Shown: positions 35,943-64,000 of the stretch, one piece after another
Numbering within the stretch: the stretch's first letter is position 1
Layout of the letters: each line of letters begins with the position of its first letter
Source: Henricia sp. BOLD:AAB3569
Taxonomy: Eukaryota > Echinodermata > Asteroidea > Spinulosida > Echinasteridae
Length of the DNA stretch: 64,000 nt
Assembly: GCA_037783545.1 (NCBI GenBank)
Contig: JBBELK010000298.1
Coordinates: 2,604,001 to 2,668,000 of the forward strand
Reading direction: 5' to 3'
Program-made: the position numbers and the translations under genes
The notes under the pieces: generated by a model
What the model saw: only the letters and a program-made list of their open reading frames with translations
Told to the model about the DNA's origin: nothing
Database searches by the model: none

Positions 35943-38900
35943 TTAAACATTGTGAGATTCCAAGTGGCCATATTCATTGCCACTTTGGAGTTGTCCAACA
36001 GCGCCCTCTTTCGGCTGTGTGTGGTTAGATCGACTGACGCGATCGTACCCAGGGGTCACGCTCAAGTGTGAATAACTTGAACCATCATCCTGGCGCTCAG
36101 GTGATCGCTTGACGTGATTGTAGTCTATAGACTCTCCACCAGCGGTAGTTTCGTCAATATCGTTATCGACTTGTGGTTCCAGAGTAAAGTACTTGTGCTG
36201 ATTTTGTGACACACTCTGATTAGCCTGAGCTTCGTGGCGTGATACACCATGTTCGGCCCTTACGGTTTCGCGAGTTGTGTAACCATTACTTCCCACGCGC
36301 AAATCTCCACCATCGAGCTCGTGATAAAAATGTCCAGTGGCGCCATGGTCTCCACGGGCCTCCGTACTACTTTCGAGGTGTTCTATTGGTGGAGCCGATG
36401 GCGTCACTGACGGTCCACCATTGTGTCCGTTCTTGGGGGTGTGACTTTCAAGATTCCAACGGGCTTGATTCTTGCCTTGGTCCTCTGGTAGATCAGTGAT
36501 GGGCACGGCGTACGTTGGGTTGGCCATTGTTGTATCTTGTTGTGGTTGACTTAGCGAGGCCAGTGCCACAGGTTGCCTGATTGGGTCTTTGCGCTTCCTT
36601 CCATCTGTAGCTCTATTGCTTCTGAAATAGGATTGATACCGAAAACGTTCAGTCCGTAAACATCTTGCTCAAAATATATACACACTTAATTAAAACTTCC
36701 TACTGAAACATTTACGGGACGGACACCTGTGTTTCATTTTAGGCCGTCCTGGTTACGAGCGTAGGCCTATATTGGAAATTTGTACACAGGGTTTTTAGAA
36801 AGGCATGTTGTCACACTATTTGTGACCCTTTTTAGGCCTAAGTTATCTTTTCAGAACAACTGAAACTTATTTCTTTTATTCTGAGACCAGACAAAGCCAC
36901 AAAGGTATTTTCTGGAAAATATATATGGTCTGTGTTGCCAAAATGCCCCATTTACCGTGGAAAGACTCGGATGCATCAATGCTTCAATGTTGGGGTATTC
37001 TTAAACAGACGAATTACTGAATATAACCACGTACCTTATGCACATCAGTTTGTCTTTGGGGAAAAAGCACAACACGCCAAGCACGACCGACACAATCACC
37101 ATTGCCAAGACGGACCCAAGGATCACAGCTTGAACGTTGACCTGCGAAGCCGGAGATTGCATTGTCGACACGGGTGGTATCGACAGCTCTTTCCGTCGAT
37201 CAATACAACTGTGATATGATAAAATTGTGTTGGTAAAATGAGCCCGAGTGTTAAAAGAGACCATGGGGGCTATCTGGAACGAGACCATGGGGGCTATCTG
37301 GAACGAGCCCATGGGGGCTATCTGGAACGAGCCCATGGGGGCTATCTGGAACGAGCCCATAGGGGCTATCTGGAACGAGCCCATAGGGGCTATCTGGAAC
37401 GAGCCCATGGGGGCTATCTGGAACGAGCCCATGGGGGCTATCTGGAACGAGCCCATAGGGGCTATCTGGAACGAGCCCATAGGGGCTATCTGGAACGAGC
37501 CCATAGGGGCTATCTGGAACGAACCCATAGGGGCTATCTGGAACGAGCCCATAGGGGCTATCTGGAACGAGCCCATAGGGGCTATCTGGAACGAGCCCAT
37601 AGGGGCTATCTGGAACGAGCCCATAGGGGCTATCTGGAACGAGCCCATAGGGGCTATCTGGAACGAGCCCATAGGGGCTATCTGGAACGAGCCCATAGGG
37701 GCTATCTGGAACGAGCCCATAGGGGCTATCTGGAACGAGCCCATAGGGGCTATCTGGAACGAGCCCATAGGGGCTATCTGGAACGAGCCCATAGGGGCTA
37801 TCTGGAACGAGCCCATAGGGGCTATCTGGAACGAGCCCATAGGGGCTATCTGGAACGAGCCCATAGGGGCTATCTGGAACGAGCCCATAGGGGCTATCTG
37901 GAACGAGCCCATAGGGGCTATCTCGAACAAGCCCATAGGGGGTATCTGGAACAAGCCTATGGGGGTATCTGGAAAGAGCCCATAGGGGTATCTGGAAAGA
38001 GCCCATGGGGGTATCTGGAAAGAGCCCATGGGGGTATCTGGAAAGAGCCCATGGGGGTATCTGGAAAGAGCCCATAGGGGTATCTGGAAAGAGCCCATAG
38101 GGGTATCGGGAAAGAGCCCATAGGGGTATCTGGAAAGAGCCCATAGGGGTATCTGGAAAGAGCCCATAGGGGTACCTGGAAAGAGCCCATAGGGGTACCT
38201 GGAACGAGCCCATAGGGGTACCTGGAACGAGCCCATAGGGGTATCTGGAAAAAGCCCATAGGGGTATCTGGAACGTGCCCATAGGGGCTATCTGGAACGA
38301 TCCCATAGGGGCTATCTGGAACGAGCCCATGGGGCTATCTGGATCGAGCCCATATGGTATGTAGAACGAGCCCATAGGGTATGTAGAACGAGCCCATAGG
38401 GGTATCTAGAACGAGCCCATAGGGGTATCTAGAACGAGCCCATAGGGGTATGTAGATCGAGCCCGTAGAGGTATGTAGAACGAGCCCATAGGGGTGTGTA
38501 GAACGAGCCCGTAGAGGTATGTGGAACGAGCCCGTGGGGGTATCTGGAACGAGCCCGTGGGGGTATCTGGAACGAGCCCGTGGGGGTATCTTGAACGAGC
38601 CCATGCGGGTATCTGGAACGAACCAGTATGGGTATGTAGAACGAGCCCGTAGAGGTATGTAGAACGAGCCCATAGGGGTATCAAAAACGAACCCACAGGC
38701 GTACGTAGAACAAACCCATTAATGTAGAACGAACCCAAATGTACACACCTTTTACCGACCAGAGTTTCTGAGATTTCGTCACAGATACAGTAGGTTCTGT
38801 TGAATGTGTCGAAGACGCAGACATCGTCATTGTCGTACTCGCAGATCCTGGCATCTTTGAAGAGACATACTTTACATTGCTCGTCTCCGCACAAAGTAGC

Positions 38901-40374
38901 TGAAAGTAATTTTGTGTGTCAAACAAATTTAATTTCGTTCAATAAGACATTTAGATCCCACAGCACACCTTTTTTCTGTAAATTTAGGGAAACCACAGGC
39001 CCCCACAAAGAAACAAAATATGTACGAACAGACACAAGTATATCAAAAACACAGGCTATTAGCACCGTCCAAAAGTAAGTGCATGGACTGGTAATACATC
39101 AGCGGTTGGCTTTGTGAAAATTAAAGAAACGCGTTTGCCATCTCGCTTATACCCAGCACGATATGTGGCAAAGGGACACACCCTAACGCCCCTATACCTC
39201 AACACACTCTTCCCTAAAAACTGAAAGGAATTCCTTGGAAATTCCTTGAATGTTTGTGACACAATGGGGGAACCATGGTAGGGTTGATATCCTCTGCCAC
39301 ATATCGTGCTGCATATGATCTCGCTCAAGGGAGGACAGTGTTCTGCCTAGACTAGTACCCAGTCCATACACACGATCGCTTGTATTCTACTTAATACGTG
39401 TACTCTAGTAAAAGTTTGTATAACCAGTTTACGCAAGGCATCGTCTACCTTGAGCAAGATGGCGAACCTAACGGTTGCCTCACTCAGGGGTGTCGCATGT
39501 TCAATCCATTGTATTTGTAGCTCAGTGCCATTATCGGACTTGCACCGTCTGTAGGGTGATACGCACTCGACTAAAAACAATACAAAATGTTTAACTAAAC
39601 TCACCATTTGTGCACTTATCCTCGTAGCACTCGGCGTCAATGTCATCCTTACGTCCTGTTGGGCATATCTGCGAGCAGATGGGACACCATCTCGAATCGG
39701 ATGTCTTGCATGATTTCCAAGAGCCGTTGCAACTGTTGATTGATTAATAAAGTCTTTAATATATGTCTAAAAAACAATAACATCATGTCATGTTCTATGG
39801 AGCTGATCTTCCCTATGGAACTGCGATGTACGAATCGTCTGATTCCAGATGCTCTCGGGGTAAATCGTGCAAGATGTAACATGATCACATCTAGGGATTA
39901 CTAAGGTACATGATTGTGTGAGCTTTTTTACAACATGTACACTTGTTGCAAATTTAACAGGACCTTTGCCTAACAATGCATATCAGGCACCAGGTAATCG
40001 GTAAAAAAGTCATGGTGCATCCCGCTGAAGTTTCCTAATAGCATCTTTTGTGTTCCATAATTGTACCAAGGAGCTCTACCGAGTGGTGTAGCAGATTACA
40101 AGACTTTGATTTAATGTACAGGTTACGGGCTCTAGCCACATGGCATAAAATTGTTGTCTTAAATATTTGTGATATCTTTACATATTCACGTTACTTACCT
40201 CTCACAAAAGTGCTGCTGCAATTGGAAAATGACGTTTCGAAGTTCGCCTGGTATCGATTCCACGTCTCCATCACACACACCGAAGCGAATAACCCAGAAC
40301 ATACAGAGCAGGAGAAACGTTGCACGGGGTTGAACGAGTGGCCAAAACACGTTAGACCGCTGTGACTTCGTCAT
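35943..40374 (-). CDS. Receptor A: secreted-Cys-rich/EGF-like, single-pass membrane protein with multi-tyrosine tail
   Basis: Exons: 40199-40374, 39605-39732, 38749-38899, 37035-37208, 35943-36621 (phases 2,1,2,2), 435 residues, TAA at 35943. Residues 1-36 are a signal peptide (hydrophobic FLLLCMFWVI). Then comes a conserved segment ending HFC, a Cys-rich exon (about 59-101), an EGF-like exon whose last six Cys follow C-x7-C-x7-C-x9-C-x-C-x11-C, a short stalk, a TM helix (about 175-201) and a 226-residue tail. Tail tyrosines: NPTYAVP, FYHEL, KYFTLE, IDYNHV and SSYSHL (both fit the ITIM consensus), GYDRV, EYGHL. These suggest phosphorylation and SH2 recruitment (inference). An upstream in-frame ATG exists, but MTKSQ starts directly before the signal peptide. 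Unlike B and C it has no 38-nt micro-exon. It is closest to small EGF-like scavenger or immune receptors, with no family assigned. Confidence 0.82.
36721..36972 (+). repeat. Dispersed repeat, copy 2 (matches 1-235)
   Basis: Same order of blocks as at 1-235, in the same orientation, with a few insertions (for example TAGGCCTA near the start). It lies in the last intron of receptor A. Confidence 0.75.
37251..38720 (-). repeat. Minisatellite of 24-bp and 23-bp units in the intron before the TM exon of receptor A
   Basis: Roughly 60 tandem units built on GAGCCCATAGGGGCTATC plus TGGAAC. From about 37255 to 37945 the period is 24 bp with very few changes (almost only A/G at one site); from about 37950 to 38270 it is 23 bp (one base lost); towards 38720 units are more diverged, with TATGTAGAACGAG variants. 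The array fills nearly all of the intron between the EGF-like exon (ends 38749) and the TM exon (starts 37208). Because 24 is a multiple of three and the unit lacks stops, several frames on both strands stay open. The homogeneous left end suggests recent expansion. Confidence 0.95.
39148..39317. mobile_element. MITE, 'CAGCACGATATGTGGCA' family, copy 2
   Basis: Same ends and interior order as 30319-30520 (CAACACACTCTTCCCTAAAA, GGAATTCCTTGGAAATTCC). Lies in the second intron of receptor A. Confidence 0.8.
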
Positions 40375-42949: not shown

Positions 42950-45354
42950 TTAGGAGTCGCTTTTTTCCAAGACAAAGTATTCGTGATGTATCGGCGACTT
43001 TGTTAAAACACCCATGCCGGCATTAGAGGTCGCTGAAGATGCCTGAACTTCACCCGGTTGCCGATCTCGCTCTAAAACGAAGTAATGGTGGCCTTCCCGG
43101 GCCTCGGTAGTTTCGTCCATTTTGGGGGGTGCATTTGACGGAGAAGCCGTACGCGCATGGCCTTTATTAAGCCCTTGGTCGTTGGTCATTATGTTGTCCC
43201 TTATCTCAGAATAATAATGGTTTGTACTTAAAGAGGTATTGTTGGATATAGCTGTAGCTGCCTGTGGATTGTGATTGTCGTTGTTGTCTCTGCGTGTTTG
43301 CAGCTCCAGAGGGTGCTCGCCTCCTGCAAACAAAAAAGAAGAGCCAGAACAATGGCAACTAACAAATAGTGACGTAATCACTTCGGTTCTCCAATACCCC
43401 ATGTACTAAAATTTAGGAAATTGTTGTTACTGCCTAAATGTTTGTAAACACATGTACTGGCAAGGTGTGGATTTCGTTGATGTATATTTGTACTGACCTT
43501 TCGTGTTCATTTCAGCGGATGTAGTTGCCGTATCGCTGGTAAAATAATAAAGATAGAAAAATAGCTTCTTAAAAAGATTTGAATTTAGTTTTATTTTACA
43601 TTCAAGAGAAATCTGAGAAGAGTTGATGATAAACTACCAGATTGGAAAACTGTGTACAAACAACGTTATCTTCACGTGCACTTGAGGCTGTGTACGATAA
43701 AACCCAACCTTGTACAAGTTACCACAGTACCTCATCCATGTTGATTCACAGAAAACTATGAGTCCATGCTTTCAGGAAATTTTGCAAAGCCACCGTCCTA
43801 GGCTGTCTCTATAGCTATAATCGGAAAACTGAGCCATTATAATCAAGGGCCTAGTCTGTTTCACATGAGGGCGCCCTAATAAAAATGCGTGCGCACAAGC
43901 ATATATACATTTTCTTATACAAAACATCTCTGACATAATCCTTGCACTGGACAGTTGGAACCACTTTCGCATCGTCCATTTAAGTAAGTTTTTTTTTGAT
44001 TCAATTTTGGGACATTGCAAATCCTGTAAAGGGGCTTTAAAGTGAACTGAACGGTACGATAGGAATACGTACTTGTTGCTCCTGCGGACCAGTTTATAGG
44101 TAGAGCAAATCCAAACTGTTGCTCCGAGAGCGATTAACACCAGACCCAAGAGAACACCGCCCAGAACTATTGCCGGCACGTTGATCTGGCCGGATGGGCT
44201 GGGAGGTGAGGTTTCCTGCCGTGTCGACAGGGCTGGTGTCGACAGGGCTGATGTCGACCGTGCAGTTGCTGGAGGTGCGCCTCTGTCTGCACAGCTGCGT
44301 CGAAAAGTAAATTTAACACATTTAAATGGACCATTTCTGGTTTAAAGGAGCGTATTCAGATCACACAAATTGACCCCCACTTATTTCATTAGAGTTAAAG
44401 AAGAAGTATACACAAAAAACTAAACAAAAAGACCACCTTTATAAAGAGGTCACCTGCTCATAGTGGCCACCTGTCTCTGGTCCCAAATGCCATGTGTATA
44501 ATGCTAATGCAGTCCTTATAAAAGGGCCACCTGTTTACAGAGACCAGTTCTTACTGTCTCAAGGGTGGCCACTGTATGCAAATTTCACCACTTATGACCC
44601 ACTTAAAAGCGAGTATGAACACATAATGACAATTGCAGCGATGCCATTCAGTTTGGGGCTACCATTTTGACCAAGAATTGGGCGAAAATAACTTTCTGCG
44701 CACAATATTTTGGTATATTGCCCTAGAAACACATGCACTAAAGACTTTTACGCAAATACTTTTTTTTGTGGAGGGAAACAGACAACTAATGGTATTAGAT
44801 GAATTTTAAATTGTCATCGAAAACGAGGGTTCCATTGCTTTCTTTTGTAATACAATTTGCAAATAAAAAAGGTACGTGACGTATAACACAATGGGTCAGC
44901 ATCTGAAAAAAGGCTGTCAGTGCTAATTTGATTTTTTTCCCCCAATTGGATCTGAAAAATTACCTGGATCCGAGATCGCGAATGCGCGTACCGCGACATG
45001 TACAAAACGATACTGTTACGCCGAGCCTGGTTGTATAATACATGCACCCATCACTTGCGGTAGTAGTATAGAGACACACGCTTGTGCCATAGTAAGTGCA
45101 GTAGAAATATTGGTCGCTTGCACACCAAAAATCTGTCAAACCAAAAGAAAATTAAAACCGTCTGTTTACCAGATTCCCTTTTACTAATCCATTTCAAAGC
45201 GCGACTCTAACAACGTCTGAATAACCAGCTAACGTTCAATAACAAGCAATAGGGCGCCATGATTGATTTTTGACCAATCATATTGCGTCTAAACTGGAAG
45301 TTCTCTGGTAGTGAACTATCATTTGCCAATCAGAAAACAGCTTTCATCTGCCAC

Positions 45355-45393
<39 letters not shown>

Positions 45394-47111
45394 CTTGGTA
45401 AAGCGCCATATCCAAAAATTGCTCTTAGGCGCAGTACAACAATACATTAACAATAAAACAAGGCTACATTTTTCAAACCTGCGATATACAGCTAAACATT
45501 TAACAATTAAAAAATGCTTCTCTAAAAAGATGGGTTTTTAACCCACACTAAAAACAACTAACACTACTAGACTCCCTGGGTTCAATTTCAAGCTGGTTCC
45601 AAAGGCTGGGACCAGCCACCGAGAACATTCTCTCACCAGCGGAAACTAGCCTAGTTTTTGGACAATTTAGTCTCAATATGTCTTAGACCGACCTATAGTG
45701 AACCGACTGGGTACTCTGATACTGATACTAAATAGCTATCAGAACTATATCTTGCATTGAATGCGTTCTTCGGTGCTGTCCAAAATCCTTTTTTTTCCTT
45801 CGTTTCAATAAAATAATTGCTTAAAAAATTTGCTCGAAGAAGAGAATCGAATTTGCTGAGAACCACGGACAATATAACTTTAAATTACATGTGGAAATAC
45901 AGTGTCGCATGTTTAGGACAACACATTATATCTACACGTTGAGTATGGTAAACCTACCCGTATCATCACTTTTTTGGCATGACTCATCCACGCGACCAAT
46001 GATCTGTGGGCACCAATTCCGCTGGCAGAAATCATTGGCGTCTGCATCACAGGCGAAGCTATAAGGCAAAATTATTGACAAAATTATAAGGACGACTTGA
46101 AGTTAGAGAAGAAACTAAAGGGGATTGGAATGGACATCAACTAGCTTGAACCTAACATAAGAAAAAGCATATGGGGCCTCATCGGGATCCGAACCCGAGA
46201 CCTCTCATTCCGTGTTTGGTAATTTCATTTCATTGGTGATTAGGCACCACACAGAATATATACAAATAAAGTGTGACGTCAGTTATCGTGGTTACCGAGT
46301 CTAAACATTCGCTGGTAATCTGAAACGTCTGTTGGTACCGGGTGGAGGGAAAGGTTTCACTGGTTCTATATAGTGTATACCCAATAACCTTGGCAACATA
46401 CACAAGATGTCGTTTTTACTTGAGTGCTCTATAGAGTAGGCCTACTATAAAACGAAAGCCGTTGTATATTACCAAGCAAGGTCAAGTGGTCTATTCTAAA
46501 AGCAATCAACTGTTTCCCTACGCTTTACCAATGGGCGTTTCAGATTACCAGCGAATGTTTAAACCCAATTACTTTGGCAACTGACGTCACACTTTAGGAG
46601 TCTATTGCAAATTTCGACCTTGTTCCCTGAAGCAGTTCTACAAAATACAAATGCTGATTGCGAAGGTGCCAGACGCATGTGCTTCCCAAGCCTCGTTTCA
46701 AAGACGAGGCTATCCGTAGAGCAGTTTCAGGAGACACGATTAAAATTACACAACGTGAATAAGGCACATATAGAGCCTTTGCACCGGCGGCCACATTGGA
46801 ACAGGCTTTCATATTTAAATGTGTGACAATGGATCCACAAGGCGCCTACTCATGCATGACGCACAGTGACAAACGCGACTGCCCTCTGTCATGGCCACCG
46901 ATGCAAGGGATCCATATTTCCGCATCTCAATTTACCTTAAACAAAAGTTGTTGATGATGGCTCCCATGTTTGTAAGAAATGCCCGTGGAAGTGCGACCGA
47001 CGTCCCCGGCGCACCGTGACATAGGGAGACTTCACCCACAAGAATCAGGACTGTAAACAGCAGAACAGCGCGGACCGTGAAAGACCCACGAAAAACAGCG
47101 CGCTTCTTCAT
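42950..47111 (-). CDS. Receptor B: Cys-rich/EGF-like single-pass receptor with Ser/Thr/Pro stalk and tyrosine tail
   Basis: Exons: 46936-47111, 45958-46058, 44964-45132, 44073-44294, 43498-43535, 42950-43323 (phases 2,1,2,2,1), 359 residues, TAA at 42950. The first coding exon is 176 nt, as in receptor A, with a signal peptide (VLLFTVLILVGEVSLCHG) and a segment ending NNFC. Then a small Cys exon, an EGF-like exon (C-x7-C-x9-C-x13-C-x-C-x11-C), a Ser/Thr/Pro stalk with a small internal repeat (TSALSTPALSTR), a TM helix (about 186-212) followed by KLVRRS, the 38-nt micro-exon, and a 125-residue tail. Tail tyrosines: NHYYSEI, HHYFVLE, HEYFVLE. The repeated YFVLE is a YxxL-type SH2 or endocytic motif. 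An in-frame ATG further upstream (47234) would put 41 residues before the signal peptide and is less likely. Confidence 0.82.
45350..45770 (-). mobile_element. Retroelement 3' region bounded by an AAT microsatellite
   Basis: An (AAT)n run at 45353-45390 is followed by AACTTGGTAAAGCGCCATAT and, further on, GGGTTCAATTTCAAGCTGG and GGTTCCAAAGGCTGGGACCA. On the minus strand this gives the usual 3' end of CR1/L2-related LINEs or their SINEs, with a GCGCT box before the microsatellite. Lies in the second intron of receptor B. Confidence 0.55.
46755..46925. mobile_element. MITE, 'GCCATGACAGGGGGCA' family, copy 2
   Basis: TAGAGCCTTTGCACCGGCGG at the left and CTGCCCTCTGTCATGGCCAC at the right, reversed relative to copy 1. 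Its right end stops about ten bases before the donor side of the first coding exon of receptor B (46936). Confidence 0.7.
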
Positions 47112-47706: not shown

Positions 47707-48203
47707 TTAAAGATAGTATACATGATTGGTAAACTGTTACAAATAGTATTATCCCCCTGTGTGATTGAAGATATGCATGATTAAAACCAACCTGAGCAAA
47801 AACCAGCTCCGTATTTCGTCTAACTTTTGAGAAAACAGCAAAAAAAGTTTGCAGTCATTTCGCCCCAAAACCACTTCGCCCTTAACCATTTCGCCCTGAA
47901 CCACGGCCTGTGCACGAAGTGGTTTTGGGGCAAAGTGCCATTTGGGCAATGTAGTGTTTGGACAAACTAATTTGGGGCGAAATGGCACTCGAGCGAAGTG
48001 GTTTGGGGCAAAATGGCATTGGGGTGAATTGAATTTTCGTCTCATGAGACGAAAACTAATTGTTCTACTCATTTCTCAAAGACTATAGCACTTCTGACAA
48101 AACCATTTCAGGGGAAGTTTTCTACGGTCATCATGTTTATGTTGTGTAGGTTAGGCGTAAATCTGTGAGCATTTCTGATTTTCGAGATGTATACTGCCTT
48201 TAA
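47707..48203. mobile_element. Element with scrambled TTCGCCCCAAAACCACTTCG core, copy 2
   Basis: Full-length copy: TTAAAGATAGTATACATGAT at the left, GATGTATACTGCCTTTAAG at the right. The core has more units than copy 1, in other combinations (GGGCAATGTAGTGTTTGGAC, GCGAAATGGCACTCG). Lies between receptors B and C. Confidence 0.85.
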
Positions 48204-48350
48204 GTGTCGGTGTTCTTCCAAAAATACAGCTACATTACATCAGTGAACTCTGTGTATCGCGTATTGTTTGACATTTTGTCTTTGTATGTTTGGAGCAAAT
48301 AAATCCCAGCATGATCTGCATTACATGTATTTAAATCTGCACGACACATC

Positions 48351-48471
48351 TTCCCTATGAAAATATAGCAATTTCAACTCCCAAAATAAATGTGAAAAAC
48401 AAAAAAAAGACTTCCCTATGAAAATATAGCAATTTCAACTCCCAAAATAAATGTGAAAAACAAAAAAAGAC
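48351..48471. repeat. Tandem duplication, 61-bp unit, two copies
   Basis: TTCCCTATGAAAATATAGCA begins at 48351 and again at 48412; the two units differ only by one A in the poly-A stretch. Located just downstream of the presumed poly(A) signal of receptor C. Confidence 0.9.
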
Positions 48472-48892: not shown

Positions 48893-51800
48893 TTATTCCT
48901 TTACAGCGCTTGCGGTTGTCACTTCATTGTCAGGGCGTTTGAGATGGTCATAATCAGTTTGAACTGCACCACCGCCATCCTTCCGTTGAGATGCAACCTC
49001 GCCGACCTTCTCGTACCCCGAATCAGGCGAAGTCGTGTTCCCCGCCTTTTGCTCCGGCTTAAAATATGTAAAGCGTATGACGTCATCGCCGCCAGGATTC
49101 AAATTCGCCGTAGTGTTTGCAACCTCGTACCCAGAATCCCGATTCTGATAAGAGTCCGGACTGTGATTGGTCGATTGCGATTTGACGTCGTCTGGAACCT
49201 GTGGTGTGGCGATCTCGTAACCAGTGGATTCGTTTTGATCTGGTTGAACTTCGACGTAAGACAGTTTGGCCTTGTCCGTTTCAGACGAGGGATTTGTAGA
49301 CCCCACAGAATGCTTTATATCTTTTTGTTCATCACCGGACTCGGGCATTTTGTCGAGCTTGAAATAAAAGTGGCCGTCCCCATCCTCGGTTTTCTCCGTA
49401 GCTGCGTCTTGCCCAGTTTCCGGACCGGAGTTGTTCTTGCTGACCTCGGAATTGCCGGAGTTGCCCGGATCTTCGACCTTTTTCAGGCGCGAGTAGTAAT
49501 GATCTTCCTGCTGCTCGTCCAGATCCGGATCATTTTTAATGTGCCGAGGATCGGTTGCCGGAGCAAATTTATGGTGGCCGTATGCGTATGAATAATCAAC
49601 GGGATCAGATCCAGATTGGTCAAGAGATTCTGCAGCCGGATTGTTACCTTTTAGGAAAAAAAGGTACGTGTATTTTGTTTAATGGCGACCAAAATGATTG
49701 TTACACGTTCGCCACAAATGTTCCTAATATGGCATGCATATTGCCCACTCCCCCCAAAAAAAACAATTTGGTGAGGAAACTTCGTCCGCGAAGGTATGTC
49801 TTAACCCTTCGCGAACGTTAGGTGGCCCACTGCCTTTGTCTGGTTCCCAGACCTAAAGATTCCAATCATTCGGTCGCCGCGACTAACTCGACCGTTTACC
49901 CTTACCAACTCGACTCGAACCAACTCGACTGCTGTGTGTACTCAATGCACAACGGTCGAGTTCATAAATGGTTGAGTAGGCAATTTGGTCTAGTTGGGAT
50001 ACGGCGAGTTGGGAATAGATACGGGAACATGTCTAATGTTTAACACGCGCCAGTGCACTCGACTAAATCGACTTGTCGTATAAGGAACGTGCGAAGCAGA
50101 TCTTCCCAAGATTTGGTCGAGATCGGACGTTTTGTGTGAACATTTTTATTTGAACGTGCTTCTTTCTTCGTGGTTGACTACCGAGATATACGACATACAA
50201 GTCGGGAATCAGAGGGCGATAAATAGAGTGAGTAGCACGCATTTTAAGAATAAATAGGCATTCGAAAATGTATAGGTGTGATGTACAGTATAGCTAGTGA
50301 GGAAAGGCAGTCTGTGAAAGTCGGACCCTCCGGGTCTTCCGGATCTTTGTTAAAAATTGATACATGTATTTAACGAGCAGAAAGTACCTAGTTTGACTTC
50401 TAAATACGCTTACATACCTTTTAACACCATGTATTGCACCAATTTGTAATCATACACCACATCGACTATCCACAAAGTGAAATTTTCGAAGAAATAGGCG
50501 CAGGAAATGCAGGACACTAAGAAAAAAGAAATTGGTTTTTTTCCACGCCGGATCTTTAAAAATAAGGCCTGTACATGGCGGTAAAAGGTATGGAAGCGTA
50601 TTAAGAAGTCAAACTAGGCACTTTCTGTTCATTAAATAGCCATTTTTGAAAAAGATCCGGAAGATCTGGAAGGATCCGGAGGGTCCGTTTTTCACCCACA
50701 CCCTGAGGAAACATGGTTTTGGCACCGATAACAGTTTTTTTTTGTAAACACTTAGTGCATGCAGTCTCAACTGGCGAACGTGTATGGTACTTTTTCCTTA
50801 CGGTGTTGTAAAGTCACAAATGTAATATGTGGTACATGTACATGTACATGGTACGGTATAAATGGTATGGTGCCTATAGGTATAAATATTTTGGTACATA
50901 AACTTGGTATAAAATATTTTGGTAGTACGTCGATATGGCGTAGTACATACCTGACATTTCCAAATCCTCAGTTTTTGAAGTGTTAGCTCTAAGGAAAGAG
51001 TAAACAAAGATATATAAAATGATTTGTACACTCGTGGCAAAAACTGGCACATCACAAACTTTTGACATCAAAGGATAACAAGCAAAATCGCCGGGTAATA
51101 TAATGCCCAGTAATTTGGAAAAATCATTTTTCGAAAAGTTTTTACAAATGGCGTCGTACTCTATACCTTGACTCTTTCCGGCAACAAAAGAAACCCGTTC
51201 TCCAGAAGAAACATACAAGAGCGACCACCAGCAGAGTTAAAACGACCAAGAGACAGCAAATAATCACAAGCACTGCAACACTGACGCGCAGGGTCGGTGT
51301 TGGGGTCGGTGAAGGTACTGCGCAACTGCAAAACAAAATTTGAAAAATAGACTTAAAGTGTGACGTCAGTTGCCGTTGTAAGTGGGTCTAAATTTTCGCT
51401 GGTAATCTAAAACGTCCACTGTCAAAGCGCAGGGAAACAGTTCATTGGTTTTAGTGTAGACCCAGTAACCTTATAGCAACACACTGAGGGTGACGTTTTC
51501 ACTATACAATAGACAACAATACAACAGGAGCTAGCTATGCGAGAATTGGCCTTTTGCGTGTTTCACATGAATAACATCTGGTGTACTGACGTACTTCCTT
51601 TCACATACACACTTAGTATCCACTTGACCAGACTAAAATGTTGTTGCTATGTGGTGCACGCGACAGGCAGGTATGAAGTACAGAATCAATGCTGTATTCA
51701 CCGTAGGAGAGAATGGCACAAAGGAACCAGACTGTTAGTTACTAGACAATGGCGTCAACCATGTAACAGCTTAGTATGTGACTTTTTAAACTGCACCTCC

Positions 51801-54800
51801 ATTTGACAGTGAAGAATTCGGGGCGCCAGCCAATATGCAAATGTTACATGCAAAAGGCTAATTGAAGCAACGCGCCGGTCATCTTGCTGCAAGAAAGACG
51901 GTGTCTTACCGAGACTGGTGCCCGGTACACAAGATCGCTTGTATTCCACTTAACACATTAACGATTCCCCAATGACAGAATTATTAATTGGCTCACTAAA
52001 TTTAACACATAATCATTGAAACATTGTGAAAATTTCGTGTATTTATAATGTAATTTTATCAAACACGGTCGTGACATCACATTGAATTAGGGGCTGTTCC
52101 CGAATCGAATGGCTTTATCTTCGGCTACAACCATCCTTTACCTTAAACCAATACTAAAGACAACCAGACCATGAACGAAGGGGGGAAAACCCCGCAATAT
52201 TAGAAAAGGGACTAATTAAACTAACCTGGCTTGCTGCATTGGTTCCCAGCCTGTTGGTTTTTGACAAACGCAAAACGACATGTCCCGATTTTTACGATGT
52301 ATACATATCCCGTTTGTGTTGTTGCACACCACTGCGCCGCTGTACTCACAAACGTAGTTTTGTGAATACTCATCGCAAGGATTTTCATCATCTGCGATAT
52401 AAATATAAAACCAAAATGGCATATACTTTGCATAATCGTATAACACGGACTTACGAATGGTACTTTGAAGATATACAATCCATGGTTCTCTGCAAATTTT
52501 ATTGTTTTTAAAGCATTTACTTTATTTTAACGAAAAACATCATACTTTGTATTTTAGACATCGACAACCCTGTGAAAAACGCCGGTAATTTTTTTTTGCG
52601 CCTTTCCTAGACTTGCCCAGGTCTGACTTCTCTTGTTTGGTATGTGGTGTAGTGAGTGCAGCGCGCCCTCTGGACTGATGGCCTGTCAAATCTCTTTTCC
52701 TTCTGAGACAGAGGAAACGGAAGAAAACAGATTGGACAGGCCACCGGTCCGGAGGGTGCGCTGCGCGTTGCAGAACGAGCACGGGAGGTCAGACTTGGGC
52801 AAGTCTACGCATTGAATTATTGGCAGGCGGACCGCCAATAATTCGAAACAGTAATTGTTCGATAACTAAACGTTGGTCGATATTTTTCCTTGGTGTCTCG
52901 TTTGAAAGCGAATAACTGTTGTTTCTAGAAAAATATTAATTATAAAAAACTGTATTTTTCACACCCAAAACTTTCAACTATCTTTAGGAATTTTGTGCAC
53001 ATCTCCGCAAGCATTTGTACAATTTAGAGACACCACTGTCCTTTTTTAGACATTAGTACGTCCGCACAAGCGCCGTAATCAATAAAATTATTTCTTCCCA
53101 TTGAAATTTATTCCGTAGCTGTCCCCTTTAGGGGCTCCGTATGGAACTGAATTCATGAGCCAAGAATCTCCCAATAACACATTGTCTTTCTGAAAAAATT
53201 ATTGTAATAAAGTGCCTTTATGGGCAGAGGTCATATATTAGATAACTTATTTGAAGAAATTAAATTTCAAAATAAGTACGTGTAGCATGAGCGATGTCTT
53301 TCGCTTCCCTGAATTTTAGAATTCACCAGATAGGCCTAGTTTTTTTCCCGCGTTTTGCTTTTCCGACAAAACTTGACAAGAGCTATTTTTAAAAAAAAGA
53401 CAAAACAAGACATTTAAAATTTCATTTCATTCTTACCAACATCATTAAGGAAACATAACGGCCCAGAGTTTTGCGTATGGTTGCAAAGTTCCGAACAGAG
53501 TCGACAGGATTCTTGTTTTTGGCAGAGGCGCGGAGAGCTAGAGCAGCGGCTGTAGTCAAGGACAGAGAAAAGAACAGTGGTGCTGGGCGAGTTAGGTTTT
53601 AAGAATATCCTTATACCCGTATACAACCACGTAAAAGTCAGTTTCTGCATGCCTTGTACGCGCTCCCGGACCCCTCTGGGCCCAATTTATTTTAATGAGC
53701 GTGTCCAGAACACGTTTTTTAGGCTCCCCCATTTCCCCCATGGGTGTTGAGATTTTGATACCATATCATTAATTTGTCATATTTTTCCCAATACCATTCT
53801 GACATTTCGCGCTCCCAATCCACATATTTCGAAGGATATCTTCAAAAAGCCATCAATGTTTCTAAACTAATTTATATGGTTACATAAAGCAGTGCAGTGA
53901 TTACACCAACACGTTTGCTTCCATATCCAAATAGATTGCAAATTTCCTGTTTTGTCCCCATTGATAGTATTTTGGGGAGACATTTTATCACTGTTGGGTT
54001 AGAACGAAATCCATCTGAGGAAGTTCCTTTAACAGCCTGTTTTCTCAGTGTTAAATTTCATAGACATCGTTTTACAGTATTCAGAAATTGACTGTCCATG
54101 AGGGGTGATAGTATACAAATAGTGACTGCAATGAGGGACATGGTTAATATTATATGCCCAGGGTGATCTCGAAGCCATGACTATGCCCCGAGGCTTCCGC
54201 CTCGGGGCATAGTTATGGCTTCGAGATCACCAAGGTCTTATAATCTTAACCATGACCCGAATAAACAGCAGTCAATTTTTGTTTTATATACCGAATGTGT
54301 AGATTTTTGTCATCTGGTTGGTTAAAAGTAATGCACCTATCAATTGTTTCCCCCACCCCCCCCCCCCCCCCGGGCTACCCCACCTAAGAGGTGGGGATTG
54401 TCACTTTTTGCGTGACAAAATCCCCACCCCTGGGGCAACATTTAGGTGACAAAAATCCCCACCCTCGGGTGCAAAACATGCGCAAAAATGCACAAAAATG
54501 CACAGATAATGGGCCAAATGCCCCACCCTGGGGCATGAAAAATGTGACCAAACCCCCACCTATGGGGTAGGGTAGCGCGGGGGGAGGGGGGGTGGGGGGG
54601 GGGGGGGGGAGTGGGGGGGGGGGGGGGAGGGGGGGGGGGGGGGAAACAATTGATAGGTGTATAACGATACACAGTCACAGTCATGACAGTGGTCTTTCGA
54701 GTTTCGATTTCGGAAGCTGGTCTACGGCGGAAAAGTTGTGTATTTACAGCAAAAAATTGTAGCATAATCACCTGCACTTTAGTAGCACATTTCACCTGAC

Positions 54801-56419
54801 ACAGTTTTCACTGAATATAGGCCATTAGCGTCCTGCTGAATGTTTACGTGAAGTGCGCAGCTATAGCTACATAGTTGGTGCACAGCTATGCTACAAATGT
54901 TATGCGCGAGTCCGGAACCCGCTAAATGACTATGCCCACGGGCATAGCAAAGACTGCCCGTGGGCAGAGTCAGAATTATACACGCGCCGGGTCTAGCTGA
55001 TTCAATGCCCCCACTTTTAACCAATCAGATGACAGGAATCTACGCATGAGGTATATAATGCAAACTATTGTCCCTAGGTTGTCTTGAGACAGTAGGCTTG
55101 CTACCCACCCACCCCCCCCCCTAACCCCACCCCCTAACCCTAATCCTAACCATAACCCCCACCCCGCCTGCTAAACGCCTCATTTCAGCCTACCCCATAG
55201 TGTTTCTCAGTTACAGTAGATTGTATTTTAGTTAGGTACGGTGTGAAATTATACGCCGTATAGTTGTGGTATTTTTAAGCATTTCTATACTTACACACGG
55301 TATACAACACAAACACAGTAATGTTATTCTCCAGAACCTTTCTTGATTTCAAAGGGAACAAGATTCATTATAAATTTAAAGCCCCAATACACAATACAGC
55401 ACTTGAAGTGATCCAAATTTTGCTTAACAAGTTGACAAACAAATCCGACTAAAAGTGTTGATAGCCAGCAATGGTAGGCCTATACAAATAATGAATGTTT
55501 ATGAGTTCCATTCAACAAGGCAAAGCCGAGTTGAATGGAACATTCCATCTTTCACCAAATGAAAATATTCCTCCCATTGAACGAATTAAAACATTCATTA
55601 TTTGTTTTATATAACGCCCAAGTAGATCCTTGTTATCCTACTTTGTTTACAAATTATTCAGGCTTACCCTTCAAGTTTATTTCTAGACTGGTTCCCGCTC
55701 CACATATTCCACATACAACGACTGGATAGGAGGACCGGCTACCGTGGTGTTTAAAATAACACTAAGCATTACGTCATGCATTTATTTGTTTAGGAGCGCA
55801 TAACCGTTAATTTTATATAAAACAAATAATGATGTTTATGAGTGCAATGGGAGGAATATTCATTCGGTGAAAGATGGAATGTGTTCCATTCAACTCGGCT
55901 TCGCCTCGTTGAATGGAACATTCCATCTTTTACCTCATGAAAATATTCCTCCCATTGCACAAACATCATTATTTGTATAATACTACATGTGTGTGGCTGA
56001 CATTTCTACATGGCATACACTTTATCAACATTATTCTTTAGTTATGTAATGCTGTAACAAGGTTTTATCTGCAAATGATAAAATGGCTTAAGCACAAGCA
56101 CTGTACATCAGGTTACCAGTGAAATTCTTATATGAAAATAATAATCTGGAAAACAGTTATCAAAAGAGCACAAGCGTATTATGTCATTCTTGCAGTAAGG
56201 TAATTTTTTCTTTGATTGTAGGCCTATGTGCTGTTCTGATGAACATGGATGAATTATATTACATTTCATTCACAGAATGACTTACCCGTTGCAAAAATAG
56301 CCAAGCAACCGTGTCGGAAATTTTGCAAGTTCTGCTGGAAGATGCACGATACTGCTGTCTGCCAGAGTCCCGTGCAAACACATCCCCATAGCACACACAA
56401 CAAAAAGAACAACCCTCAT
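48893..56419 (-). CDS. Receptor C: Cys-rich/EGF-like single-pass receptor with the longest multi-tyrosine tail
   Basis: Exons: 56286-56419, 53437-53549, 52226-52391, 51167-51325, 50951-50988, 48893-49647 (phases 2,1,2,2,1), 454 residues, TAA at 48893. A short signal peptide (VVLFVVCAMGMCLHG) is followed by a segment ending GYFC, a Cys exon, an EGF-like exon (C-x7-C-x6-C-x10-C-x-C-x13-C), a PSPTPTPT stalk, a TM helix (about 153-179) and CCRKES, then the 38-nt micro-exon and a 251-residue tail. Tail motifs: VDYSYAY, HYYSRL, FYFKLD, LSYVEV (ITIM-like), GYEIAT, SGYEVA, TYFKPE, SGYEKV, DYDHLKRP. The first exon is 2.7 kb from the second and was found by splice site, phase and the conserved LPAEL...FC segment; it is the least certain join. 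An AATAAA on the minus strand at about 48529-48534 may be the poly(A) signal. Confidence 0.8.
50325..50692. mobile_element. Palindromic element with GGACCCTCCGG ends
   Basis: GGACCCTCCGGGTCTTCCGG at the left mirrors GATCTGGAAGGATCCGGAGGGTCC at the right; inner AAAGTACCTAGTTTGACTTC mirrors GAAGTCAAACTAGGCACTTT. Lies in the last intron of receptor C. Confidence 0.75.
52608..52807. mobile_element. Palindromic MITE with TAGACTTGCCCA ends, uninterrupted copy
   Basis: TAGACTTGCCCAGGTCTGAC and GTCAGACTTGGGCAAGTCTA are inverted ends; the middle shows AGCGCGCCCTCTGGACTG against CCGGAGGGTGCGCTGCGC. Lies in the second intron of receptor C. Confidence 0.8.
53683..54035. repeat. Dispersed repeat with AAAGCAGTGCAGTGATTAC core, copy 2
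   Basis: Collinear with 5765-6105 and in the same orientation; begins near ATGAGCGTGTCCAGAAC and ends near CTGAGGAAGTTCCTTTAA. Lies in the first intron of receptor C. Confidence 0.7.
54139..54255. mobile_element. Near-perfect foldback element, GATCTCGAAGCCATGACTAT core
   Basis: GATCTCGAAGCCATGACTAT pairs with ATAGTTATGGCTTCGAGATC around a GAGGC-TTCC-GCCTC turn; outer CATGGTTAA pairs with TTAACCATG. Lies in the first intron of receptor C. Confidence 0.85.
54332..54661. mobile_element. PIF/Harbinger-like MITE with GC-rich arms, copy 2
   Basis: Same termini as 2841-3115, flanked by TAA (54329-54331 and 54662-54664). Its right arm has expanded into an almost pure G tract (about 54583-54642). 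The inner segment is the reverse complement of copy 1, as expected for a near-palindrome inserted in the other orientation. It lies in the first intron of receptor C. Confidence 0.8.
55490..55990. repeat. Complex inverted repeats with GGGAGGAATATT arms
   Basis: AATGATGTTTATGAGTGCAA (about 55828) to the right end GCACAAACATCATTATTTGT form one palindrome, and about 55490-55620 is a diverged relative (GAATGTTTATGAGTTCCATT ... AACATTCATTATTTG). Both share CCATTCAAC and GTTGAATGGAACATTCCATC. Lies in the first intron of receptor C. Confidence 0.65.
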
Positions 56420-57232
56420 CTCAGACATTTGTGTTTTGAATTTCACTGACAAAAATTCTGACTATATACACCGACAGCCAAAATCTTCAACTTGAAATGG
56501 TGACAAATCCAATAATTCCCACTCAACGTACTAATACCAGACCTGTTGTGCATTTGGGCTTAGTATGATTTTGCAGTAAAATGACCTCGCCCTTGAAAAT
56601 CTTTTCTGTGATATAAATGAGTTCTTGACGTAGGCGCAATGGTGTAACCGTCACACAATGCATCTGATACGAGTCACTGGCTACTCTAAAAATACCGTAT
56701 TACCTTCACCGATTTCTATAGAAAACTGGATAAACCTGTCTCATTCAACGATATAAAAACGTGCTACTTCCTTTTTGAAACACGTACATACGTACTCACA
56801 ATACGTTAGGGATATTAGTACGTGTATGTTGTATTTTTGGAATTAATATTTTTTCAAATGATTGTTTTTACCTATTCCTGTGACAAGGTGTGTCTGTCAT
56901 GCAGATACAAATGTCTAATCGTATACAAAATCATTCAAGCGGAATGCATACCCTTAATAAAATATCTGCGTACACCCATTCCCTAACTTTTTGCGAGTAG
57001 TATAGGCCTATACTACATGTATTGCATGTTCTTCACACAAATAGACCGTATCGAATAGCTGCCATCTTGTAGGGCAGTTTCTTTGTTCCTTGAGGACATG
57101 CATGGTTGCACATTTTGTGCTTACATTGTTTACCAACTTCCTATTCGGAAGTGATTCAAAGTTGCTTGTCCTCCAAGATAGTTGGAACATGTACAACCAC
57201 AGCGAGTCTTTCTGCTTGATATTCTTGGGTTT

Positions 57233-60280: not shown

Positions 60281-60314
60281 AGGCTGTCTGTGTGTATCAA
60301 ACTGCAAAATCGTT

Positions 60315-61063
60315 TCAAACGACGTTGACAGAAGCGTACGGAGATGCCAGGGGTGGCTTCTGAGATTGGCCTGTGACGCCCTCACTCGACTCGCTTGCTG
60401 ACACGTTCTTAGGGTGGTCGTATTCGGACAGCGTATTATGAGGAATGCTCGAACTTGGCATTGTGCCCGTTGGCGTAGCGAGATGGTTGTACGCGGACTT
60501 CGTACTTGGAGATTGATATTGGGCTGGGACGCCCTCGCTCGTCTTGTTTGCCGATACGTTCCTAGGGTGGTCGTATTCGGTTACCGTACCACGAGGGGTG
60601 CTCGTGCTCTTCATTGAGCCCGTTGGCTTAGCGAGATGGTCGTACGCGGACACCGTGTTTCCTTGGTCTTTCGATTGCCGTCCGGAAACTGGTACCACCT
60701 CCGAGTAAGCATGTTGAGCATCTTCTTCCGGGGTTTCGTTTAGTGTGAAATAATGGTGGTTTTGCAGGGCCTCCGTAGCTGTAGCGTTATGTACGTTCAA
60801 TGCCTCCCCGGTGTCTTTCGAGGCTTCCGTAGCTTTGTTTAGTGTAGTGTAGTTGCGGACTTGTGGATCAGCAGTTAGTGCTTGATAATCTTCATTCCAC
60901 TGCGGTGAAGTGACCTTTGACCTCTCCTGGTCACTCCTTGTCAACTTTTCGCCAGTTTTCGCTGGTTCCCCAGTCCTAGGACTGTCTGGAACTCGCCACT
61001 GATTGTCGTGTGTGTGATCACTGGTTTCCGTGCGTTCAGCGAGATGCACACGTCTGGAATCCA
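60315..61063 (-). CDS. Receptor D: last exon (cytoplasmic tail) of a fourth paralogue, 5' exons not found
   Basis: This exon enters in phase 1 after an acceptor AG, exactly as the tail exons of B and C, and ends with a stop at 60315 after PYASVNVV. It codes 249 residues, all hydrophilic. Motifs: EDYQAL, NYTTLN, HHYFTLNE (the family's YFxL signature), AYSEVV, SAYDHL, TEYDHP, AQYQSP, SAYNHL, SEYDHP, PYASV. Residues from SAYDHL onward form a tandem duplication of about 50 residues, SAY(D/N)HLA(K/T)PTG...EYDHP(R/K)NVSA...SEGV. SAYDHL and SAYNHL fit the ITIM consensus. The micro-exon, TM and ectodomain exons should lie at higher coordinates, in the last 3 kb or beyond the window; I could not find them. 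Confidence 0.75.
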
Positions 61064-62237
61064 CTGCCCAATCGAAAAGAAAATGATGTAAATTTGCTAT
61101 ACTTTAAGTAATGTTTCGGCAAACATAATTAAATTATTCATTTATAATAAAACAGGTTTTGGACCTATATACAATGTACTGCTGATAAGCGACTCCCTAA
61201 ATGAAGAAAATGTCCGCCATCTTGCTCCAAGGAGTACAATGCCTAGATTGGTTATATACTATTTTCATTGAAGTACATGTGTTAAGTGGAATGAAATCGA
61301 TCGTATGGACCGGAAAACAGTCTATGCTAGTACCCGTCTTGTCTGTAACAAGACGGTTGATACGTTACTTCAATTCTCGTATAGTCATCCGTTATTGCAT
61401 CTGGCCTATTGTATTAAGTTCAGTTCGGTCGTACCCGGTACCCACCGCTGGGACGGGCTGATCTATTTGCGCCCTCATTGGCCAAAATGTATACGACACG
61501 TGACCACGATGTCACCTCCTTTTCTTGGAAACGGACTTTAAAACGATTTTTTCCAGCAGGCATTTCATTCGTAAATTTGATTTTTGCACTGGATATTATG
61601 TGTGTTAACATGCTATTTTTTAATTATTCGTCTCTCAGCAAGCGACCCAAAATGCTCCGCGCGTCTGTATATGTGCCATTTTCGTCACGTGTTTCCTTCA
61701 CAGAAATATGTGAAGGCACACAAAATCCAGTAAATATGTAAATTCACTTTGGGCAAAAGCAATCTGCGAAGGAGTGCCACAACGCTTTAAACCGAATAAA
61801 AATGTTTGTAAATAAATATTAATTATATAGCAAATATTTCACAGATAATTTCAATTTTTTAAATAAATATAGTCATTTTATCTTTAGTCCGAATTCTACA
61901 CCATGCATAAAGTAAAGAAATGTACAGTTTACATTCTACATTCACGCGTGTGTGGTTTAATTTTACTAGAAAAATATCCATTTAAAAATATTGGTACATG
62001 CTTTAATACATGCTTGATTACACTTAAAACGGTTTTTAAAAATGCAAGACAGATTCTTGAACATAAACATTGGACGGAAAAGTTATTTTCCTTTTCCTTT
62101 TTTTCAACTTATAATGTATGAAGGCTGTAATCAAAACAATCACCGATATCCATAATCCAATGTAGAAAATCCAATATAATAATATTCGTTTTCTGAATAT
62201 TTCATACGAGCAAACCTAAATATATTATACAATATAC

Positions 62238-62398
62238 ATGTATAGAGCCTTTGCACGGTGGCCATGACAGGGGGCAGTCACATTGTCACCGTGTGTCATG
62301 CATGAGTAGGTGCTTATTATGGTTCTATTGTTACATCATTTAAATAAGAAAACCTGCCCCTGTCATGGCCGCCGGTACAGAAGCTCTATTGCAAACAT
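62238..62398. mobile_element. MITE, 'GCCATGACAGGGGGCA' family, copy 3
   Basis: TATAGAGCCTTTGCACGGTGGCC ... GGCCGCCGGTACAGAAGCTCTA with internal CATGACAGGGGGCAGTCACA and CCTGCCCCTGTCATGG. Best preserved ends of the three. Confidence 0.8.
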
Positions 62399-62418
62399 TG
62401 AAAACTAACAATCAGCTA

Positions 62419-62718
62419 TTAAAGGTAGTATACTAACTTGTTTGGTAAACTGTTAAAACGGCATGATTTCCACTGGTAGGTGGAAGCATAGGTCAAGAAA
62501 ACCACCTTGTAGAAATTTCAGCCACATAGATGCAGTAATACTTGAAAAAAATCCAAGTACGGTTTTTGTGCATGAATGAATGCATGGCTCCAAAGATCGC
62601 CTATTGGAGATTCAAATAGTTTTGTCATTTTTTTTCAAGAATGGGGCAATTCAGACGAAATAATTTCACAGGATGATTACTACCATTACCATCTTGATAA
62701 CAAGTAAGGCTACCTTTA
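62419..62718. mobile_element. MITE, 'TTTAAAGGCAGTATACT' family, copy 2
   Basis: TTAAAGGTAGTATACT at the left and GGCTACCTTTAAAG at the right; interior blocks match 34783-35082 in order and orientation. Confidence 0.75.
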
Positions 62719-63357
62719 AAGCCTGTTATCATTTAGTGGATGAACAGTTGTGTGGCAGTCACGGAGCACCGTACTACCAATCATGAATTGTTGAACAACA
62801 TCTAAACATGCACAATTTCTCCCGATTTCATTGTAGAGTGGTAAATCCCCGGTAAAACATGGCCTTTCAATACTCTCAACATGGCCTTGGGAAATAATAT
62901 TAAATACAAGCTAAACAGACATGCAGCTACGTACACGAACCTTGGACAAAACGGACTTGTTATTCATTATTGTACAGCCATTTGTATTTTACTTCCTCGT
63001 CCGTGCATTGAAATAAGCATTTGTTTCGCTTTTTAAAACGCAGTTTTGAACGTCATAAATGCGTAGCATCCGTGATGTATGCTCGGGTGATTCAATTCAT
63101 TATTCGCACTTTCCCACGACCCAAAAATAAAAAAAGAAAGAAAAATCTCACGTGATTATATACACTAATTTCCTATACAAAAAATACTGTGTACATGTAG
63201 GCCTATACTGCAAAAAATGTGATGTTAAATTGACACCAGTGGTGTTGTCTTATATGGATACCAAGTCTGGTGTTAAAATTTAACACCATGTGTGTTAGTT
63301 TTTATTCCTCATTTGGAATAAATGCATTATTTTTAACACCCTAGGTGTTAAAACTAT

Positions 63358-63680
63358 AAGAAATGTTCACAGATTTACGCCTAACTTACACAATATACAC
63401 ATTATGACCGTAGAAAACTGATATAGTCTTTGAGAAATGAGTAAAACAATTAGTTTTCGTCTCATGAGACGAAAATTCAATTCGCCCCAAAACTATTTCG
63501 CCCCCAAACCACTTTGCCCGAGTGCCATTTCGCCCCAAATCACTTCGTCCAAACACTACATCGCCCAAATGCTACTTCGCCCCAAAACCACTTCGTGCAC
63601 AGGCCGTGGTTCAGGGCGAAATGGTTCAGGGCGAAGTGGTTTTGGGGCGAAAGGACTGCAAACCCTTTTTTGACTGCCAA
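63358..63680. mobile_element. Element with scrambled TTCGCCCCAAAACCACTTCG core, inverted copy 3
   Basis: Opens with CACAGATTTACGCCTAACTT and CGTCTCATGAGACG, then about 12 units of the TTCGCCCCAAA / ACCACTTCG type. The left-end module of the other copies is missing or diverged after 63680. Confidence 0.8.
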
Positions 63681-63783
63681 CTTATAAAGTAAAAATGTGG
63701 CCCGGAATGTGGGTCATTGCAAATGATATAATGCCGTACAATCAGTTTTGTTTATCTCCTTTTAAAACTCACTTTGGCCTCCA

Positions 63784-63933
63784 TAGACCGCATCGAATAG
63801 CTACCGCCTTCTTGGGGCAGCTTCTTTGTTCCTTGAGGACATGCATGGTTGCACATTTTGTGCTTACACTGTTGACCAATTTGAATGACAAAAGTTGCCC
63901 TACAAGATGGCAGCTATTCGACACGGTCTATAT
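63784..63933. mobile_element. MITE, 'ATAGACCGTATCGAATAGCTGCC' family, complete copy
   Basis: ATAGACCGCATCGAATAGCT at the left, AGCTATTCGACACGGTCTAT at the right, with the interior GGACATGCATGGTTGCACAT. Partial copies: 57040-57140 (same interior) and 59640-59745 (CCGCCATCTTGTAGGGCAGT ... GGCAGCTATTCG). Confidence 0.85.
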
Positions 63934-64000
63934 AGCAATCCAAAAGTACTTTAGAATAGCATTTTGGTACTACATTAAACCGAACATCTCATTTTATTGG

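Follow-up and report, generated by a model that had tools for sequence, protein, structure and literature searches.

A cluster of candidate phosphotyrosine-docking receptors

The window analysed here is a 64,000-nucleotide stretch of the sea star Henricia sp. BOLD:AAB3569 (positions 2604001-2668000 of the 5.30-Mb contig JBBELK010000298.1, here C298, within a 740.7-Mb assembly), and positions called window positions are in its coordinates. By joining exons by hand, we obtained three complete genes for type I membrane proteins (A, B and C) and one tail exon (D), all on the minus strand, as an earlier note on this DNA had claimed. The same note took them for an array of four. This count had to be raised to at least eight loci (A-H) inside about 124 kb, since the array runs on outside the window, where the same contig carries the complete genes E, F and G and, on the opposite strand, a partial gene H. 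We think it fairly probable that these genes form a clustered family of phosphotyrosine-docking type I receptors, for which we infer ectodomain function, phosphorylation and SH2 docking from the sequences.

The proposal of a paralogous, clustered receptor family with one transmembrane (TM) span and tails rich in YxxL/I/V was supported by shuffle tests, hydropathy and motif counts. Mature ectodomains of A, B, C and E resembled one another in all six pairs, their scores being reached by 0 to 5 of 500 shuffles, and in a hold-out search a profile built from A, C, D and E recovered B at E=0.001. One strong hydrophobic span was found in each of the seven proteins, and a hydrophobic N-terminus in all six for which exon 1 could be modelled. 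In the four window tails, 21 of 35 tyrosines lie in YxxPhi, a count reached by none of 20000 composition shuffles (mean 4.7, maximum 13). Over all eight tails, which are not independent given the near-copies in F and G and the internal repeats of H, 50 of 76 tyrosines lie in YxxL/I/V (0 of 2000 shuffles; mean 10.5, maximum 20).

Tyrosine motifs in the tails

The enrichment was seen for several specific motifs. YF-x-L is present in all eight tails, and the wider form Y[FY]-x-[LIV] occurs 10 times, at least once per tail, for a shuffle mean of 0.5. The YFxLE motif described earlier for the window genes is found in A and B, and is replaced by YFKLD in C and YFTLN in D; Y(D/N/S)HL, described alongside it, does not extend to B, where Y-x-H-L is absent. 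Y-x-H-[LIVP] was counted 23 times in the eight tails (shuffle mean 0.5). Sites of the immunoreceptor tyrosine-based inhibitory motif (ITIM) type, [SITVL]xYxx[ILV], gave 18 matches in seven of the eight tails, none being in B (shuffle mean 2.6, 0 of 2000 reaching). A relaxed pair, YxxL/I/V-x5-12-YxxL/I/V, which resembles the immunoreceptor tyrosine-based activation motif (ITAM), was found 8 times in six of the eight tails (shuffle mean 0.3, 0 of 2000 reaching). YDxP was not above chance, and YxxM, YxxQ and the immunoreceptor tyrosine-based switch motif were absent from the eight tails.

The tail of H has 13 of 16 tyrosines in YxxPhi and contains five tandem 49-residue modules, each with YDHL or YNHL and with YSHI or YNHI, the tyrosines being kept at 10 of 10 positions. 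Tail D contains two copies of a 51-residue module. These module copies suggest that docking sites were multiplied inside tails as well as by gene duplication.

The ectodomain and the EGF question

Across the family, the ectodomains are small and rich in cysteines and differ strongly from one another. Both patterns claimed for the window genes were exact in A, B and C, namely [IL]-P-x2-[LF]-x10-F-C in exon 1 and the cysteine spacing of exon 3 (gaps 7,7,9,1,11 in A; 7,9,13,1,11 in B; 7,6,10,1,13 in C). A six-cysteine, EGF-like spacing with C-x-C between the fourth and fifth cysteines is present in five of the seven genes (A, B, C, F and H); the C-x-C is missing from E, and two of the six cysteines from G. 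Typical EGF modules have a shorter gap between the second and third cysteines and a shorter gap before the last one than the modules found here. No Pfam EGF family was listed at E<=5 for any of the seven proteins, nor any Ig, sushi or EMI family, with the limit that the HMMER filters discard most Pfam matches above about 0.1. As a domain name, "EGF-like" was not supported. Mucin-like stalks with TTQAPS and STPAV/NTPAV repeats were noted in H (L028 6980-7384) and F (L004 197-454), and are absent from G.

Gene models and splice sites

A, B and C have a common build. The N-terminus is hydrophobic, three exons bear cysteines, a stalk leads to a single strong hydrophobic span, and the last exon encodes most or all of the tail. 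Gene A (435 aa, 5 exons, window 40374..35943, minus) starts with exon 1 (40199..40374), which carries the start codon, a predicted signal peptide (hydrophobic start) and an IPGEL-x10-FC block and ends in phase 2. Exon 2 (39605..39732, phase 2 to 1) encodes a cysteine-rich module, exon 3 (38749..38899, phase 1 to 2) the EGF-like cysteine spacing, and exon 4 (37035..37208, phase 2 to 2) the last cysteine, stalk and TM span (hydropathy peak 2.89). The cytoplasmic tail and stop are in exon 5 (35943..36621), with 6 of 8 tyrosines in YxxPhi and one NPxY. A 24-bp minisatellite of about 61 copies (window 37257-38682) occupies most of intron 3 of this gene; the long open frames over it, on both strands, look like repeat artefacts.

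Gene B (359 aa, 6 exons, window 47111..42950, minus) encodes a predicted signal peptide and LPRAF-x10-FC block in exon 1 (46936..47111), a cysteine-rich module in exon 2 (45958..46058), the EGF-like cysteine spacing in exon 3 (44964..45132), and the last cysteine, stalk and TM span in exon 4 (44073..44294; hydropathy peak 2.63), followed by a 38-nt microexon (exon 5, 43498..43535) and a short tail with 3 of 4 tyrosines in YxxPhi, two as YFVLE (exon 6, 42950..43323). Gene C (457 aa, 6 exons, window 56428..48893, minus) is laid out likewise, with a predicted signal peptide and LPAEL-x10-FC block (exon 1, 56286..56428), a cysteine-rich module (exon 2, 53437..53549), the EGF-like spacing (exon 3, 52226..52391), the last cysteine, a short proline/threonine stalk and the TM span (exon 4, 51167..51325; hydropathy peak 3.54), a 38-nt microexon (exon 5, 50951..50988) and a tail with 13 tyrosines, five of them in YxxPhi (exon 6, 48893..49647).

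The common exon order and the intron phases 2,1,2,2, with an additional phase-1 intron in B and C, were recovered in the joined genes as previously described. Since splice boundaries were picked by eye with the paralogues in view, this phase agreement is partly built in. All 14 introns of A, B and C are GT-AG, and of the 32 introns modelled in total the only exception is the one that follows exon 2 of E, with a GC donor (31 of 32 GT-AG). For the TM exon of gene F the acceptor used is weak, and a better-looking one lies 31 nt upstream, out of frame.

Extent of the array

Exon profiles from A, B and C (for the tail, also with D) were run over 230 kb of the contig. They picked up three exons of gene E, which adjoins the window (exon 3, E=7e-6; TM exon, 0.0083; tail, 0.0075), and matched the tails of F, G and H weakly (E 0.8 to 8). 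In a whole-genome search with tail F, F, G and H were firmly linked (E 1e-97, 2e-76 and 2e-26). Genes E (422 aa), F (364 aa) and G (351 aa) are on the minus strand with phases 2,1,2,2,1. Exons 3-6 of gene H were modelled on the plus strand; no convincing candidate for its exons 1 and 2 was found in a search that included the 10 kb below contig position 2574001. Microexons measure 38 nt in E, 41 nt in F and G, and 35 nt in H. The order along the contig is H (+), then A, B, C, D, E, F and G (all -), with about 56 kb, including other genes, between the end of H and the end of A.

No ninth member was among the matches listed for profiles run over 240 kb up to contig position 2814000, and the 10 kb below position 2574001, scanned only for H exons 1-2 and tyrosine-rich frames, gave nothing convincing. 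Searches of the same genome with tails A, F, E, D and C and with H exon 3 listed nothing off this locus better than E=0.66, which gives a lower bound on copies, as tail A was searched only to E 0.001, only the best candidates were scored, and tails B and G were not used as queries. A dispersed element made of 15-16 bp units of the type TTCGCCCCAAAACCAC was observed between receptor genes (window 35212-35490, 47840-48181 and 63481-63641; also in L003 and L004). It could favour ectopic exchange.

Two subgroups and a mosaic gene pair

From the shuffle results for ectodomains and tails, the loci fall into two subgroups, A/B/C/E and F/G/H, joined by gene structure and some tail pairs. F and G ectodomains resemble each other (score reached by 0 of 500 shuffles), the tails of F, G and H match one another, and the tail of E matches those of F and G (0 of 200 shuffles in each case). 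Exon 3 of H also resembles exon 3 of E (50% over 28 residues, E=0.0017).

On sequence comparison, the F/G pair at least is a mosaic, because a near-identical terminal-exon cassette is combined with dissimilar ectodomains. The common block spans 1013 alignment columns and comprises the intron end (32/36 nt identical), the tail exon (450/494) and the 3' flank (405/437), the cassette being about 91% identical in DNA with this flank included. Protein identity is 63, 13 and 32% for exons 1, 2 and 3, 46% for the TM exon and 83% for the tail. Indels are of 6, 3 and 3 nt in the coding tail versus 19, 13, 1 and 1 nt in the flank, as a translated exon would show. The density of synonymous differences is higher over exons 1-3 than over the tail (Fisher p=1.4e-6), although the count is inflated in the poorly aligned exons 2-3; for exon 1 alone p=0.006. 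The simplest reading would be that the terminal-exon cassette was recently copied or converted between two older genes, for this one pair only.

In the F/G tail the ratio of non-synonymous to synonymous divergence (dN/dS) is about 0.5 (dN 0.081, dS 0.156). For the ectodomains, dN was higher than dS only in exon 2 (1.08 vs 0.78) and, by a narrow margin, in the TM exon (0.42 vs 0.38). Positive selection on these ectodomains was considered and set aside, the 23 (exon 2) and 41 (TM exon) aligned codons being too few and too poorly aligned.

Tail exon D

Exon D (window 61063..60315, minus) has a phase-1 acceptor and 249 codons, with 7 of 10 tyrosines in YxxPhi, the pair YQAL-x8-YTTL, two YDHP and its internal 51-residue duplication. 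Its membership of the family appears weaker than that of the other loci and is suggested by the resemblance of its tail to that of H: against A, B, C, E, F and G, 3 to 30 of 200 shuffles reached the score, and against H none of 200. D was not among the matches listed (E up to 10) for a tail profile from A, B, C and E.

We looked for the rest of a gene. For D, the matches listed over the interval of about 3.2 kb from its acceptor to the E stop included no exons 1-4, and a normal full gene was rejected, as no ectodomain or TM exon was recognised between D and the upstream gene E. A hydrophobic, basic-ended candidate TM exon at window 62.1-62.2k was also rejected: its acceptor phase does not fit, no good donor was seen, and it was not among the TM-profile matches listed. 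D could be a decayed gene or an alternative last exon of E. The phase-1 end of the E microexon and the phase-1 start of D would join in frame (contig C298 2668285-2665063), a fit that makes the second possibility conceivable.

Database searches and comparison with known systems

Searches of the protein database with gene C, with the ectodomain and TM region of gene A and with the seven-gene alignment found no relative; the coverage of invertebrate deuterostomes in that database not being established, this is weak evidence of absence. In the PDB, the C ectodomain had no sequence match at E<=5, and the seven-gene profile gave 20 matches up to E 10, the best at 0.29 and mostly to transmembrane segments. 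No Pfam model reached its cut-off for A-D. For E-H, only Cementoin did so, in H (27.8 bits vs 27), where it sits on the TTQAPS stalk repeat. Extensin, insulin-receptor TM, TMEM154, GAPT and other models were below cut-off and fell on stalk repeats or TM segments. We accepted none of these matches as homology. Judged by title or abstract opening, none of the publications among the matches listed describes such a family.

Sp185/333 proteins are secreted effectors that are not known to have a signalling tail, unlike the receptors described here. By description alone, the two sets are alike: in the sea urchin, the Sp185/333 immune genes lie in clusters and have diversified with repeats and, as has been proposed, by gene conversion (PMC5103432).

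Likenesses are found as well in the excerpts of the sources on other receptors. The fester co-receptors (FcoR) of the Botryllus schlosseri fuhc locus are clustered and have tails in which ITIM, hemITAM or core YxxI/L/V motifs can occur (PMC12065747), and the present family is likewise a clustered, multigene set of type I receptors with long YxxI/L/V tails, here with at least eight loci and 50 of 76 tyrosines. In the same excerpt uncle fester, of the related fester family, is a 3' exon duplication with an unrelated N-terminal half (PMC12065747); the F/G pair, one pair here, also combines a common 3' cassette with a dissimilar N-terminal part. FcoR ectodomains are described there as Ig and sushi, whereas Pfam listed neither in this family. 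Hydractinia Alr forms a large allorecognition gene family with 41 members in one complex (PMC11999971), and candidate allorecognition genes of Hydractinia carry ITAM and ITIM motifs (PMC12065747). The ectodomains of Botryllus and Hydractinia allorecognition proteins are Ig-type in these excerpts, in contrast to the seven proteins examined here, for which no Ig family was listed. Amphioxus BbLcLRR has tyrosine motifs including HDYSEV and HDYDDP, is phosphorylated by Lck, and in Jurkat cells was seen to associate with SHIP1 and, to a lesser extent, with SHP1/2 (PMC8211107). HAYSEV and EYDHP of tail D resemble these motifs, but the BbLcLRR ectodomain is an LRR. Clustered receptors with YxxI/L/V tails are of a known kind, and what is new here is the ectodomain together with the duplicated docking modules.

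Weighing the alternatives

Several results weigh against a single family of phosphotyrosine-docking receptors. The F and G ectodomains have no detectable similarity to those of A, B, C and E (47 to 330 of 500 shuffles reach the score in the eight pairs), so that only layout, phases and tails tie them to the family, and the B tail was not above shuffles against F, G and H (83, 15 and 65 of 200 reaching). The strict ITAM, YxxL/I-x6-8-YxxL/I, occurs once in the eight tails (D, YQAL-x8-YTTL); at least one such pair is present in 59 of 2000 shuffle sets. Purifying selection is not demonstrated for the F/G tail, since its dN about equals the divergence of the flanking non-coding DNA, and the H repeats gave no signal of it (pS 0.070, pN 0.058). 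Finally, YxxPhi is also compatible with AP-2 endocytic signals.

This last point leads to the main rival, in which the proteins would be endocytic or scavenger receptors, with YxxPhi (and NPxY in A) as AP-2 sorting signals for the uptake of ligand or debris, or for engulfment of the Megf10/Draper/CED-1 kind. The YxxPhi enrichment itself and the NPTY of tail A speak for it, as does the combination of NPxY with ITAM or YxxL in Megf10, Draper and CED-1, which in the consulted part of the source are also single-pass proteins with a cysteine-rich ectodomain and tail tyrosine motifs (PMC8092387). They carry EMI with EGF-like or NIM repeats and NPxY, whereas the proteins here have one six-cysteine module, no EMI or EGF family was listed for any of the seven, and NPxY is found in one of the eight tails. 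This is no more than chance would give, as at least one NPxY appears in 583 of 2000 shuffle sets. Up to 13 YxxPhi per tail and duplicated tyrosine modules are, in our judgement, more than sorting would need. We regard this explanation as unlikely, and endocytosis through YxxPhi may coexist with docking.

It is improbable that the proteins are membrane-anchored growth-factor-like ligands, with the six-cysteine module as the EGF-type ligand of a receptor kinase and a tail for trafficking or reverse signalling. One EGF-like spacing does lie beside the membrane in A, B, C, F and H, but E and G lack part of it, the Pfam EGF family was listed in none of the seven, and the tails are very long and tyrosine-rich. 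Slightly less probable still are transmembrane adaptors (LAT/PAG-like scaffolds) with an ectodomain of little importance, for which the many tyrosines per tail and the short cysteine-bearing ectodomain part of F and G (only about 75 and 100 residues) can be cited, but against which stand the depletion of Grb2-type YxN in the eight tails (1 vs 5.6 expected), the hydrophobic signal-like start, the N-glycosylation sequons in five of six genes and the retention of most of the cysteine layout.

Other features of the window

Downstream of gene A, two likely rhodopsin-type G-protein-coupled receptor exons lie on the minus strand (window 25896-27341 and 32281-32841). They match Pfam 7tm_1 with E=2.3e-08 and, in the second exon, E=5.8e-05, which falls short of the curated cut-off. 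An exon with Tcp10_C repeats on the plus strand (window 16943-17353; Pfam PF07202, E=1.3e-24) is presumably the end of the centriole gene CENPJ/CPAP, and a coiled-coil-like frame at window 11814-12059 may belong with it. A tRNA match (window 3392-3464, minus, 42.5 bits) lies near an element (3200-3274) found again at 15085-15159; together they are possibly a tRNA-derived repeat.

Proposed function and significance

The best reading by analogy is a receptor family that would work like the ITIM/ITAM-type receptors of Botryllus or Hydractinia, yet is not a member of those families. In such phosphotyrosine-docking receptors the ectodomain would bind a ligand, Src-family kinases would phosphorylate the tail, and the phosphotyrosines would dock SH2 proteins, either SHP/SHIP phosphatases or Syk-type kinases. 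Each gene would thereby link a single recognition module with a signalling tail of many sites. Growth of the array, together with tail-cassette exchange and ectodomain divergence, could lead to many specificities with a common output. The motif counts would allow either polarity of signalling: ITIM-type sites dominate by number, and relaxed ITAM-like pairs are likewise more frequent than expected by chance.

Recognition of the natural killer type in vertebrates depends centrally on clustered receptors with ITIM/ITAM-type tails, as does allorecognition in Botryllus and Hydractinia. By analogy, an immune or self-recognition role would be the likeliest use of the present family. A bolder and doubtful proposal is that the locus is an undescribed non-Ig recognition complex, a cluster able to expand, which would run in parallel with the Ig-based Botryllus and Hydractinia loci while being independent of them, and in which fast-diverging cysteine-rich ectodomains would be combined, through terminal-exon exchange, with a common stock of phosphotyrosine tails of differing polarity for self/non-self or partner recognition.

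If the receptor reading is true, a family that combines this tail logic with an unrelated ectodomain, small and rich in cysteines, would represent an independent route to a diverse receptor set. One gene pair, F/G, provides sequence evidence that tail cassette and ectodomain can evolve separately, and the members of the family are concrete candidates for phosphoproteomics and haplotype resequencing.

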